From: Betaproteobacteria bacterium Ga0077527
GTDB lineage: Bacteria > Pseudomonadota > Gammaproteobacteria > Burkholderiales > SG8-41
Direction: 5' to 3'
Assembly (NCBI GenBank): GCA_001464815.1
Contig: LNDW01000003.1
Span: 1 to 64,000, forward strand
DNA: 64,000 nt
Shown: piece by piece, positions 9,499 to 44,851 of the stretch
Position numbering within the stretch: the stretch's first letter is position 1
Layout of the letters: the number at the start of each line of letters is the position of its first letter
Made by a program: the position numbers and the translations under genes
The notes under the pieces: model-generated
The model's database searches: none
What the model saw: the letters and a program-made list of their open reading frames with translations, nothing else
What the model was told of the DNA's origin: nothing

Positions 9499-10276
9499 CG
9501 GCTGACTCGAGCCGAAACATACGCAAATCTTCGCCGGCAGCAATACCACCTGCCGCGAAACGCTTTTCGTGATAAATGACATCGCCGCTGCGGCTGACCA
9601 GCAGCACTGTTGAGGTGCGCGTGCCGTAACGCTCGCCGGTTATGAAAGGTGGTGACAACTCGCGTTCACGCTGGCGGCTGATGCCGGTATCGGGCAGCAA
9701 TGTGTCATGTGCGGCGTCACGGCCACCGAGAAATGCAAACATGGCCGCGGCAATCCGGTCCGGATCATCGTCATCGACGCTGCCTGCGAGCGCAGCCATA
9801 CCCGCACTGACCTTGGGCCAGGGCGTGTCGAGCAGGTGATTGCTCAGCCCGTGTAAACCGGGGGCAATGGCCTGCGCGCCTGCAGAGCCGCGATTGGAGT
9901 AGACATACAAACCGCGCAAATCGCCGGCAATCACGCTGAACGGGTTGTAGTCAGCGGCGTCGCTGGCGACCGTGCCCAGGTAATCACCGGCATGGCCGTC
10001 ACCGGTCAGAAAGTCACTGACAATGGCGCCGCGTGAGCGGGGCGCTGCGGGGCCTGCCTGGCCTTCGCGATAATTGGTGATTGCGGCAAAGCGGCCACTG
10101 GTGGTGATACCCATCCAAGTGCCGCCTTTTTCGAGATCGCGTCCGGCATATACCTGCGGATGATCAGGCCAGAACGCTGCGGCGGCCGCCGCACGGGCAT
10201 GGTGTTCGTCACGGTTGGCGGCGACCATCAGCGGAAATCCGCGGCGCGCGTCGAAGCTGAACAGGATCAGGCACAT
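9488..10276 (-). CDS. NRDE-family protein (TANGO2-like)
   Basis: A 262-residue protein starting MCLILFSFDARRGFPLMVAANRDEHH, the NRDE signature of the Ntn-hydrolase-like TANGO2 family, in which Cys2 is exposed if Met1 is removed. GGTWMGIT near 50 is also conserved. Biochemical role in bacteria is not established. It is the last gene of the ygfZ-DUF4936-NRDE minus-strand run. Confidence 0.88.
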   Translation of the reverse strand: MCLILFSFDARRGFPLMVAANRDEHHARAAAAAAFWPDHPQVYAGRDLEKGGTWMGITTSGRFAAITNYREGQAGPAAPRSRGAIVSDFLTGDGHAGDYLGTVASDAADYNPFSVIAGDLRGLYVYSNRGSAGAQAIAPGLHGLSNHLLDTPWPKVSAGMAALAGSVDDDDPDRIAAAMFAFLGGRDAAHDTLLPDTGISRQRERELSPPFITGERYGTRTSTVLLVSRSGDVIYHEKRFAAGGIAAGEDLRMFRLESAVTA

Positions 10277-42442: not shown

Positions 42443-42450
42443 TTATGAAA
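42421..42450 (+). repeat. Dispersed AT-rich repeat, copy 7
   Basis: Core TAAACAAATAGTTA at 42432-42445 (10 of 14), spanning the tatD stop codon and running into the ankyrin gene start (ATG 42445). Confidence 0.5.
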
Positions 42451-43092
42451 TTTTTTCGGATATCTGCCCTATCCCTGATTTTGGCCGCAATACTTCTACC
42501 TGCAAGCCAAGCCAAGGCCAGTGCCTACGAGGACATGCTGCTCGCCATCCGCAACGACAACGAAAATGTGGTCATCGATCTGCTGCGACGAGGCATGGAC
42601 GTCGATACCGTCAGCCCACAGGGCGAAACCCTGCTGATGATGGCGGCACGTGAAGGCAAACCGGCGGTTGTCCGGGCCATCCTGGCCAGCATGCCGCGGC
42701 TGCAGTCCCGCAGCCCGATCGGGGAAAGCGCGCTGATGCTGGCTGCCATCCAAGGCCATACCGATGTGACCCGGATGTTGCTGGATGCCGGAGCACCGGT
42801 AAATCAGCCCGGATGGACGGCGCTGATCTATGCTGCCGCCCGCAACCGGGTTGATATCGCAAGGTTGTTGATCGGCAAGGGCGCCGACGTCAATGCTGCC
42901 GCAGACAATGGCATTAACGCGCTGATGATGGCCGCACGCGAAGGCCACCTGCAGATGGTCTTGCTGCTGCTCGAGCATGGCGCCGATCCCAAACTGGTCA
43001 ATACAGCGGGTCATTCAGCCCTGAGCCTGGCTGTTTCAAGGCAGCATGCTGAAGTTGAGAAATTACTTCGGAGGGCAGGCGTAAATAACTGA
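42445..43092 (+). CDS. Exported ankyrin-repeat protein
   Basis: A 215-residue protein with a signal peptide (MKFFRISALSLILAAILLPASQAKA) and about five ankyrin repeats with typical consensus pieces such as GETLLMMAAREGKPAVVRAIL, GESALMLAAIQGHTDVTRMLLDAGAPVN and GINALMMAAREGHLQMVLLLLEHGADPKLVN. Probably a periplasmic protein-binding scaffold. No clear Shine-Dalgarno sequence, since the upstream bases are the repeat. It is the last chromosomal gene before the dif-flanked element. Confidence 0.9.
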   Translation: MKFFRISALSLILAAILLPASQAKASAYEDMLLAIRNDNENVVIDLLRRGMDVDTVSPQGETLLMMAAREGKPAVVRAILASMPRLQSRSPIGESALMLAAIQGHTDVTRMLLDAGAPVNQPGWTALIYAAARNRVDIARLLIGKGADVNAAADNGINALMMAAREGHLQMVLLLLEHGADPKLVNTAGHSALSLAVSRQHAEVEKLLRRAGVNN

Positions 43093-43140: not shown

Positions 43141-43168
43141 TTTACGCATAATGTGTAGCGCGGTAAAT
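43141..43168 (+). other. dif: Left dif-like attachment site with degenerate XerD half
   Basis: XerC-side half TTTACGCATAA (43141-43151), centre TGTGTA (43152-43157), XerD-side half GCGCGGTAAAT (43158-43168). The XerC half matches the E. coli dif half in CGCATAA, but the inner part of the XerD half is GCGC in place of TTAT. This asymmetry is what is known for attP sites of TLC-phi-like elements. Confidence 0.75.
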
Positions 43169-43229
43169 TTCCACTGCCAATCAAGCACTTAAGTCCTATG
43201 AATGATAAAACGGGGTGTTTTGTGGGGGC

Positions 43230-43586
43230 TTAACCCTTCGCAAAGTTGTTGCCTCGCTTTCTGGAAACCGCTGCGGTTTGAAACAGCGCGTCTGGCCGGG
43301 GTGCATGGAGCCAGCCCTGACGATCAACGAGCAGCCGAGGGCCACGCCGCCCACTGGTCAATCGAGACAGCCGAACCGTCCACTGACCCCCCGGATTTTT
43401 TGTGCCTGCAAGCCGCCCTGAGGCCAGCAGGAAGCGGATACGCTGCGGGCTGACATCGAGCAGACGGGCCGCCTCAGCCACCGTCACCAGCGAAAACGGG
43501 TGGTTTTGGAAGGTCTGACGGCGCGCAACAGTTTTTTTGGAGGGCATCGGAACTACTTTGCCTTTGTTTTCAGTGACTTGAATCAT
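43230..43586 (-). CDS. Small HTH protein (excisionase/AlpA-like)
   Basis: A 118-residue basic protein. FSLVTVAEAARLLDVSPQRIRFLLASGRLAGTKNPGGQWTVRLSRL (about 31-76) is a MerR-like winged HTH of the excisionase type; the C-terminal tail is Arg-rich. AAAGGT lies eight bases upstream of the ATG. It is the promoter-distal gene of the element, separated from the XafT-like gene by hairpin DNA. It may regulate the element or help excision. Confidence 0.75.
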   Translation of the reverse strand: MIQVTENKGKVVPMPSKKTVARRQTFQNHPFSLVTVAEAARLLDVSPQRIRFLLASGRLAGTKNPGGQWTVRLSRLTSGRRGPRLLVDRQGWLHAPRPDALFQTAAVSRKRGNNFAKG

Positions 43587-43622
43587 AAATTGACCTTTTT
43601 TTGAGTGTCATCCATGGCACTT

Positions 43623-43851
43623 TGTGCGGGTTGTTACTAAGAACCCGCACAGCCGACTTTGGCTGTCTGGAGAACAGACACACCGTCAGGCTCCTGAACC
43701 GGCGCGGCGAGGACGTTGCCCCCAAAAGCGCGCCCACTCGCGAGGGCGCGTTTTGGGGGACCCGATGCCACCGGGGGCGTCCACACCGCCTTGCGCGGTG
43801 TGGTTGCACTTTGAGAGGCGGTGCGCGCAAGCGCGCAGTCACCTCTCAAAG
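43623..43851. repeat. Cluster of long hairpins (ssDNA origin/packaging-like)
   Basis: Inverted repeats in order: 43623-43632 with 43642-43651 (10 bp perfect); 43664-43669 with 43675-43680 (6 bp); 43719-43735 with 43744-43759 (9 bp, one bulged base, 7 bp); 43781-43789 with 43795-43803 (9 bp perfect); 43809-43818 with 43842-43851 (10 bp perfect) enclosing 43822-43828 with 43831-43837 (7 bp, AA loop). The XafT-like reading frame runs through this tract as low-complexity sequence. Filamentous phages carry such hairpin arrays at their origins and packaging signal. Confidence 0.75.
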
Positions 43852-44311
43852 CGCTCAGGTGCTCCGGTAACTCATCCTCAGGGCGCAGTGACAGCAACAA
43901 GGACAGGTCGGCAGGCAGGGGCTGTGGCTGCTCACGGTGGCGATTGAGCCAATGACGGGCGAGGGCACAGGTCAAGCCCCACCACCCCATGTCCGAGGCT
44001 TTGAAACCGAGTCCCTCAGACGAATACAGGGTGTCGCCGACCACACGCCAGCCCTGCCAGTTTTTACCGGGCAGAAAGTGACAGCCGAGCACACGGACCA
44101 GCTCGAACGCGGTGAATGGCACCCGTCGGGCGCCGGCCTCCCAGTTGCGGATGGTCTGTTGGGTCACGCGCAGCCGTTCCGCGGCCACAGGGATGGTCCA
44201 CGTGGCATGCAGACGGGCATCCTTGAAGTCCTCACCGGAGACGAAGGCTGTAGCACTGAGGGCGCTCAATGGGGCCTCCGGATCAGCAGGCCGGGCGGGA
44301 ACATCCACCAT
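43637..44311 (-). CDS. HTH protein resembling XafT/VC1465-type Xer recombination activation factors
   Basis: A 224-residue protein. An HTH (about 38-65, ATWTIPVAAERLRVTQQTIRNWEAG) is followed by a conserved-looking block FELVRVLGCHFLPGKNWQGWRVVGDTLYSSEGLGF (69-103) and WWGLTCALARHW (110-121). HTH plus W-x-G-W and S-x-EGL is, from memory, the pattern of the VC1465/DUF3653 family that includes TLC-phi XafT. Residues after about 153 are encoded by the hairpin tract and look non-conserved. If right, it would activate XerD at the flanking dif-like sites. Family assignment needs a profile search. Confidence 0.65.
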   Translation of the reverse strand: MVDVPARPADPEAPLSALSATAFVSGEDFKDARLHATWTIPVAAERLRVTQQTIRNWEAGARRVPFTAFELVRVLGCHFLPGKNWQGWRVVGDTLYSSEGLGFKASDMGWWGLTCALARHWLNRHREQPQPLPADLSLLLSLRPEDELPEHLSALRGDCALARTASQSATTPRKAVWTPPVASGPPKRALASGRAFGGNVLAAPVQEPDGVSVLQTAKVGCAGS

Positions 44312-44457
44312 TGCCAGGTCAAACGATCACGGCGTGCGCCCAGGACCTGGCCCGAGATGCACAGATGCTTGAGGGTGTTCAGTGGAATGCCGATCAGGCG
44401 AGCGACACGGGTGACCGGCAGGCCCTGTGGCGGCAGATTAACGCGCAGCGTGGCCAT
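44266..44457 (-). CDS. Small HTH-like protein of the dif element
   Basis: A 63-residue protein, MATLRVNLPPQGLPVTRVARLIGIPLNTLKHLCISGQVLGARRDRL..., resembling a short MerR/excisionase-type HTH. ATG 44455-44457 has a strong GGAGGTG ribosome site; an ATG at 44472 would add five residues. It overlaps both neighbours (20 bp upstream gene, 46 bp XafT-like gene), suggesting compact phage-style coding. Confidence 0.6.
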   Translation of the reverse strand: MATLRVNLPPQGLPVTRVARLIGIPLNTLKHLCISGQVLGARRDRLTWQWWMFPPGLLIRRPH

Positions 44458-44752
44458 GGGCGGCACCTCCATGGTCTACGGACGACAACAGATCGGGAGT
44501 GAACTGGACGGGCTTTAAAACGCGGTCGTGATGCAAGGCTTGCACCACAGCCCCGTTGATGACCGAATACTCTGGATGGTCACCGAGCAAACGCCGCAGC
44601 TTGGTGTGAATCTTGGCCGTGGTGATGCAGTCGTTCAGGCTGGCCGAGTAATTCGGTTCTTCGATGATCTCGGACAGAACGCCCAGCAAGACGCAGATTT
44701 CGTGGTCGTTGAGGGGTAATACGTGCCGCCGGTGGATGTTGCCGCTTGCCAT
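44438..44752 (-). CDS. Hypothetical protein, first gene of the dif element
   Basis: A 104-residue protein, not recognised. LNDHEICVLLGVLSEIIEEPNYSASLNDCITTAKIHTKLRRLLGDH is probably helical. AAAGGAG lies five bases upstream of the ATG. It begins about 70 bp inside the right dif-like site and seems to lead the four-gene minus-strand unit. Confidence 0.6.
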   Translation of the reverse strand: MASGNIHRRHVLPLNDHEICVLLGVLSEIIEEPNYSASLNDCITTAKIHTKLRRLLGDHPEYSVINGAVVQALHHDRVLKPVQFTPDLLSSVDHGGAAHGHAAR

Positions 44753-44823
44753 AAAAGCTCCTTTGCAAGAGGCTTGAACCGGCAGTGGAAATCAGAAAAC
44801 TATTGCGCTGAATCGTACTCCTT

Positions 44824-44851
44824 GATTCGTATAATGTGTATTATGTAAAGT
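44824..44851 (+). other. dif: Right dif-like site, probably the functional chromosome dimer resolution site
   Basis: XerC-side half GATTCGTATAA (44824-44834), centre TGTGTA (44835-44840), XerD-side half TTATGTAAAGT (44841-44851). Against E. coli dif (GGTGCGCATAA-TGTATA-TTATGTTAAAT) the dyad CGxATAA/TTATG is kept. Same orientation and identical centre as the left site. XerC/XerD cut here to resolve chromosome dimers under FtsK control. Confidence 0.85.

Follow-up and report, generated by a model that had tools for sequence, protein, structure and literature searches.

A dif-flanked unit of small genes and hairpins

The window analysed here is a stretch of 64,000 nucleotides from Betaproteobacteria bacterium Ga0077527. 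Beside an ankyrin-repeat gene it contains a repeat unit of 1,683 bp, in which four small minus-strand ORFs with relatives in other elements, together with hairpins, lie between two dif-related sites in direct orientation (Table 1). A preliminary description of this DNA had reported two directly oriented dif-like sites that share the centre TGTGTA and enclose 1,683 bp. This arrangement was confirmed, except that only the right site (GATTCGTATAA TGTGTA TTATGTAAAGT) is a full dif. The left one (TTTACGCATAA TGTGTA GCGCGGTAAAT) is a half site, in which the XerC arm and the centre match dif but five of the eight scored positions of the XerD arm are mismatched.

Table 1. Features of the dif-flanked unit, in window coordinates.
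Feature	Position	Strand	Description
Left junction	43141..43168	+	Half dif: host XerC arm and centre TGTGTA; element DNA replaces the XerD arm
Inverted repeat, left arm	43167..43178	+	Perfect 12 bp; 0/60 shuffles
Gene A	43230..43586	-	118 aa, HTH_17/MerR-type DNA-binding protein; PF12728 E 4e-8, above Pfam cut-off
Double hairpin, TTAC loop	43606..43651	+	Putative rolling-circle origin, inovirus G2P (Phage_CRI) type
Gene B	43637..44311	-	224 aa, HTH and DUF3653; PF12375 above cut-off
G+C-rich hairpin	43719..43759		16-nt arms, 88% complementary
Second long hairpin	43806..43854		Contains an internal hairpin
Gene C	44266..44472	-	68 aa, weakly HTH-like
Gene D	44438..44752	-	104 aa; homologues in L051 and L041
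Inverted repeat, right arm	44781..44792	+	Same perfect 12-bp repeat
Right junction	44824..44851	+	Full chromosomal dif

The core CGYATAATGTRTA occurs exactly twice in the 3,418,246-base, 26-contig assembly, at 43145-43157 and 44828-44840, and a looser full-dif pattern matched the right site alone. The GC skew changes sign across the element, from +0.019 on the left to −0.042 on the right. The left:right counts of GGGNAGGG, small numbers from flanks of 43 and 19 kb, are 4:0 on the plus strand and 1:4 on the minus strand. The skew flip and the strand switch fit a replication terminus and a true dif, and the chromosomal dif is the right one of the two sites. The XerC arm of this site would be derived from the element and its XerD arm from the host. 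Insertion at the host dif, with the element lying between dif and a dif-like site of the same orientation, is characteristic of IMEXs, as is the lack of an integrase of their own; no recombinase was found among the five minus-strand ORFs of the element that were scanned. The degenerate XerD arm is a feature shared with attP of TLC-phi. The perfect 12-bp inverted repeat would flank attP in a circular form. It was rejected as a general trait, being significant in only 3 of the 17 units described below.

The same dif in related genomes

The preliminary description had proposed a search for an empty dif in close relatives. With the ankyrin-repeat gene (42445-43092) as the locus marker, 20 relatives were counted that carry its orthologue at ≥50% identity, leaving out L054 and L061 (distant paralogues) and L055, L057 and L058 (no ankyrin-repeat gene). 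The expected empty site was found in 14 of them (L037-L040, L042/L118, L043-L046, L048, L050, L056, L059 and L060), where a single dif lies about 10-70 bp past the ankyrin-repeat gene, with no second core in the stretch examined. Three others hold a comparable element at the locus (L041, L051 and L047, the last cut by a contig end), two end at the locus (L052 and L053), and one (L049/L112) has a 6.6-kb stretch with a filamentous prophage encoding Zot and Rep between the ankyrin-repeat gene and dif. We conclude that the element is mobile and not a lone remnant. Its absence from relatives in which dif is intact is a further feature of IMEXs. The prophage at this dif locus (L112 8861-15440) comes from G159, a member of the window genome's family; on its ankyrin side, no half site could be clearly made out.

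The closest relative of the window genome, G191 (TrpS 98% identical), has an empty dif with the centre TCAGTA. This centre was seen in two of the 14 empty relatives, G191 (L037 4716-4743) and G046 (L118 7940-7967), which belong to one genus, in place of TGTGTA or TGTATA. A dif centred on TCAGTA should be incompatible with the window element.

Gene B encodes a relative of TLC-phi VC1465

Pfam recognises DUF3653 in the B proteins of the window, G205 and G115; their HTH matches fall near the cut-offs, just under them in the window. VC1465 of the TLC-phi satellite, annotated at a dif junction, shares this domain composition (DUF3653 E 4e-24), and hhalign aligned a family alignment (A1) with it over 102 columns (probability 96.6, E 5e-10). 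By this profile comparison, B is related to VC1465, which we take to be XafT. The protein is thus a candidate Xer activation factor of the XafT kind. In PMC13142030, xafT and cri are used as TLC markers. DUF3653 was found in 6 of the 74 genomes of the window genome's family.

Matches to this protein type also turned up in other settings. Pfam finds DUF3653 in phage PG21, filed as Corticoviridae (L076 1-417), and Villovirus Vf33 (L075 around 1501-1722) has it by a weak tblastn match alone, so the protein type may serve several kinds of phage. In G049 (L064 7370-9614), two B-like genes stand in tandem with no paired dif sites recognised around them, and a site at 9658 has the XerD arm and centre only. 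A record named Rudaea (L121 517-2103) has a B-like stretch in a single long frame with a membrane-protein-like continuation and no dif core at the locus.

Of the three small genes with HTH character announced in the preliminary description, A scores above the Pfam cut-off; the HTH of B falls just short and C is weakly HTH-like. Homologues of A are present in L062 and L047. In G205 and G155, its slot is taken by a different small protein with a weak ribbon-helix-helix/TacA resemblance below Pfam cut-offs. C has a homologue in L062 (E 7e-11), which scores 21 bits against MerR, below cut-off. A probable role for A, C and D is regulation of the element or its helper.

A family of small units

Searches with the window's B alone gave no match among phage and plasmid records or in IMG/VR, and relatives and profiles were therefore needed to find the family. 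An order-wide profile search gave matches in 162 of 399 genomes, those listed being mostly short, weak and restricted to the HTH part, and only the strong ones were used. Scanning genome contigs with alignment A2 yielded 28 loci, from which nine (L137, L138 and L140-L146; unrelated phyla, short matches) were dropped. Among the 19 remaining, which have a good B match, 14 have paired sites, three have one site and two have none (L121 and L126). L064 and L066 also lack flanking sites, and L067 has just a dif 5 kb off. The 14 paired-site loci, the window, G048 and the IMG/VR contig L147 make up 17 distinct complete units with paired sites, 1125-2031 bp long (median 1751), in answer to the suggestion that the same element be sought in other genomes. 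Their record names are Gallionella, Gallionellaceae, Gallionellales, Sideroxydans, Thiobacillus and Burkholderiales.

Each of the 16 other units has a half site like the left junction of the window, with the XerC arm and centre in common and a variable XerD side. In L124 and G347 the far site is a half site as well, because another element comes next. Those genes that a unit has are arranged as full dif, D, C, B, A, half dif. Matches of type A were found in 15 units, C in 10, D in 10 and B in all 17, the last by construction, since the units were found through B. No unit of the 17 matched Rep, Zot, pIII or SSB at E 1e-3, with queries from the inoviruses L148, L147 and L112. The unit thus lacks coat and assembly genes, as judged on Zot and pIII matches, which is a feature of inovirus satellites in the broad sense. 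The earlier reading, an element that lacks integrase, initiator and coat genes, is in accord with these searches and with the ORF scan.

A double hairpin shared with inoviruses

A stretch common to the units and neighbouring inoviruses first drew our attention to the putative origin, which consists of a small hairpin, a few bases and then a longer hairpin with TTAC in its loop. An automated definition set after examples had been seen picks out 13 double hairpins in the units (29,128 b); the chromosomal control (218,694 b) has 6, or 0.27 per 10 kb, and the shuffled units (582,560 b) have 16. The origin was called in 12 of the 17 units, ten clearly and two doubtfully (G205 and G347, minus strand); it was not found by this definition in the other five. 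In an alignment of eight sequences, with L131 one column off in the second stem, 90.9% of the stem cells are paired versus 75.5 in shuffles. Changes on both sides occur in 8 of 14 pairs, a number reached by 3 of 500 shuffles, and covariation is 0.421 versus 0.183 ± 0.041 (0/500 shuffles); further pair types are at chance (211/500). The stems of the origin are kept by compensatory changes.

Two cores, sought as exact matches in IMG/VR, turned up 99 loci, and the hairpin is complete in 14 contigs (16 places). A Rep match was found in all 14, and in each the hairpin is on the strand opposite to rep, either at the 5′ end of its frame or no more than about 300 nt ahead of it. Since L191 equals L210 over 9.8 kb, 13 of these contigs are distinct. 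An enlarged search placed 13 of the 14 Reps above threshold, and the weakest, in L257, has PF05144 at E 7e-10. A Rep was present in only 1 of the 85 other loci, which served as controls (L233, where the core is at the very end of the contig). The G2P family domain PF05144 was detected in all five Reps tested (L148, which is L191; L170; L256; L257; and prophage L112). L191 and L210 have a second hairpin within the mini-element adjoining the phage, and 27 of its 28 core letters agree with the phage origin. The window origin is 80% identical over 51 nt (E 0.001) to that of inovirus contig L197. Its exact variant has no copy in IMG/VR, and a close variant, as in G048, has two, both with Rep. Rfam gave no match here at the gathering threshold. 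Because the hairpin lies at rep in inoviruses and stands without Rep in the element, the element carries an inovirus-type origin minus its initiator. The structure and sequence of the origin are common to units and inoviruses, and helper proteins may recognise it as a cis site.

The hairpin tract noticed earlier is real, with DNA-fold z scores of −5.4 and −6.4. Stems of at least 10 bp number 28 in the units versus 3.8 in block shuffles, and the TTAC hairpin accounts for 6 of the 28. The hairpins at 43719-43759 and 43806-43854 are candidates for a packaging signal or a complementary-strand origin, the packaging role being a guess. Three units share with two inoviruses a long hairpin that has the loop TTGGCGTGGCTTGCGCC or a close variant, and another motif is common to five units and four inoviruses; both are absent from the window element. 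Inoviruses and mini-elements (L170 6440-6610, L197 350-505 and units L124, L127, L130, L132 and G224) also have in common a short stretch of conserved sequence, in which CCCATGCGGG precedes CTAGTGCCAA or a close variant. The D-type matches in L170 and L197 overlap or adjoin the CCCATGCGGG motif and may not be real genes.

Inoviruses next to the units

In four distinct arrays (L148/L149/L124; L113/L125; L130; L147), a mini-element adjoins inovirus DNA that encodes Zot. The two are separated by a separate half site in the first two arrays and by a full dif in L130 and L147. Two arrays are known from a viral collection, one of them, L147, only from there, and such a collection favours viral neighbours; the other three are also in genome collections. 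The window genome, in an assembly 91% complete, has neither Zot nor a G2P-type Rep (PF05144), nor any match to the Rep of prophage L112. Zot was found in 1 and the G2P-type Rep in 2 of the 74 genomes of its family.

Discussion

The proposal of a Xer-exploiting element in a betaproteobacterium is borne out by the empty dif in 14 of 20 relatives, the 17 complete units and the four arrays adjoining inoviruses, and the helper that such an element had been said to need fits the same arrays. To that first reading the analysis adds a gene resembling one of TLC-phi, an origin of the helper type and the connection with inoviruses next to the units. We consider it probable that the 1,683-bp unit is an integrated inovirus satellite without a recognisable replication protein, coat protein or recombinase. 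We further think it reasonably probable that the units form a family of natural integrating phagemids in Burkholderiales, including Gallionellaceae, of 1.1-2.0 kb, which leave all enzymatic work to others. They would integrate by host XerCD with the aid of an XerD activator that they encode themselves, and copied cis elements would let them replicate and spread by means of the Rep and coat of an inovirus. Points that tell against the satellite reading are the lack of Zot and G2P-type Rep in the window genome, the units in which no origin was called, the chance level of further pair types in its stems, the good B matches with one flanking site or none, the inverted repeat that is significant in few units, the differing dif centre of the closest relative and the viral collection as a source of arrays.

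According to the model that we propose, the G2P-type Rep of a co-resident inovirus would nick the double hairpin at 43606-43651 of the excised element, leading to rolling-circle replication in trans. The single strand, with its strong hairpins, would be packaged by the Zot and coat proteins of the helper. In a new host, the double-stranded circle would recombine with dif through host XerC/XerD, attP having the XerC arm and centre only. B may activate XerD for recombination independent of FtsK, as XafT does for TLC-phi.

One alternative is that the unit is a decayed, immobile remnant of a complete filamentous prophage or TLC-like satellite that has lost its rep, zot and coat genes. The missing rep, zot and pIII matches and the lack of a helper in the window genome would agree with this. 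However, 17 distinct units, found across families of the order, vary little in size and keep their small genes open, their dif cores are intact, and their origin stems are kept by compensatory changes. The recurrence of size, gene order and origin in these families weakens the case for decay, which we regard as improbable. A cassette unrelated to phages, which moves as DNA only, by natural transformation or between replicons, and uses dif as a safe docking place as pdif modules do, would explain integration, for which host Xer could suffice, and would agree with packaging being no more than proposed. It would not account for the inovirus-type origin, the four inovirus arrays or the relationship of B to a gene of a satellite phage, and we think it very improbable.

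The unit might instead be an island hostile to helpers, in which B, A, C and D provide immunity to or interference with dif-integrating inoviruses and the origin is a decoy for Rep. Many satellites interfere with helpers, and DNA-binding proteins together with a copied origin could titrate Rep. Element and inovirus occur together at four loci, however, so exclusion would be incomplete. We think this rather unlikely as the explanation, although it is compatible with the satellite reading. The possibility that a dif-like sequence arose by chance near the real dif, among ordinary small ORFs, has the small size of the genes in its favour and nothing further. It is refuted by the presence of only two cores in 3.42 Mb, by the empty sites and by the 16 further paired-site units, and its probability is negligible.

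The satellite reading can be set beside known systems. TLC-phi of Vibrio cholerae is about 4.7 kb long, compared with 1.7 kb for the unit, and both have a gene for HTH and DUF3653 next to the site (VC1465 in TLC-phi). PMC4246890 describes an attP-TLC in which the XerC site and centre are almost identical to dif1 and the XerD site is degenerate, and integration in which XerD starts the exchange without FtsK. As in the unit, dif is used without an integrase and the XerD arm of attP is degenerate. By the same account, TLC-phi uses the coats of another filamentous phage, as we propose for the unit, and has its own replication module, whereas the unit has an origin only and no Rep match (PMC4246890). 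In the absence of a replication gene of its own, of the kind that cri represents, we do not file the unit as a member of TLC-phi in spite of its TLC-like integration. The features tested agree with an IMEX and, in a broad sense, with an inovirus satellite.

RS1 of CTX-phi is likewise a satellite at dif that forms arrays with a filamentous prophage and carries regulatory genes; unlike the unit, it keeps rstA and rstB. CTX-phi, VGJ-phi and XacF1 also use a dif site and host recombinases, but they are about 7-8 kb long with Rep, Zot-type and coat genes. M13 miniphages and laboratory phagemids, with an origin and packaging hairpin only and with Rep and coats in trans, are neither integrative nor natural families with genes of their own. 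The gonococcal genetic island is large, unlike the unit, and we know of no phage origin in it or in other IMEXs. Like the unit, these islands are bounded by dif on one side and by a modified dif on the other, as stated in PMC9765430. RS1 is named as the CTX satellite in PMC11389934 and is classed with CTX-type integration in PMC4246890. Titles and the starts of abstracts, from few subscription journals, yielded no Rep-less inovirus satellite at dif; related elements may be in print, and one title in the reference list of PMC11389934 concerns a plasmid as an inovirus satellite. New here is that the element bears the double hairpin found at the 5′ end of G2P-type rep in virus contigs.

If our reading is true, the units are among the smallest integrative satellites known. 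A DNA parasite may then need no more than one attachment half-site and an origin that it borrows, along with packaging-type hairpins and several small proteins that bind DNA, and the theme of TLC-phi and RS1 would reach, in a Rep-less form, from Vibrio to environmental betaproteobacteria. Elements of this kind tend to escape annotation, and the combination of a half dif, a DUF3653 gene and the TTAC double hairpin is a signature by which they can be searched for. The units would also offer a naturally minimal set for asking in what way DUF3653 proteins may direct XerD when FtsK is not involved.
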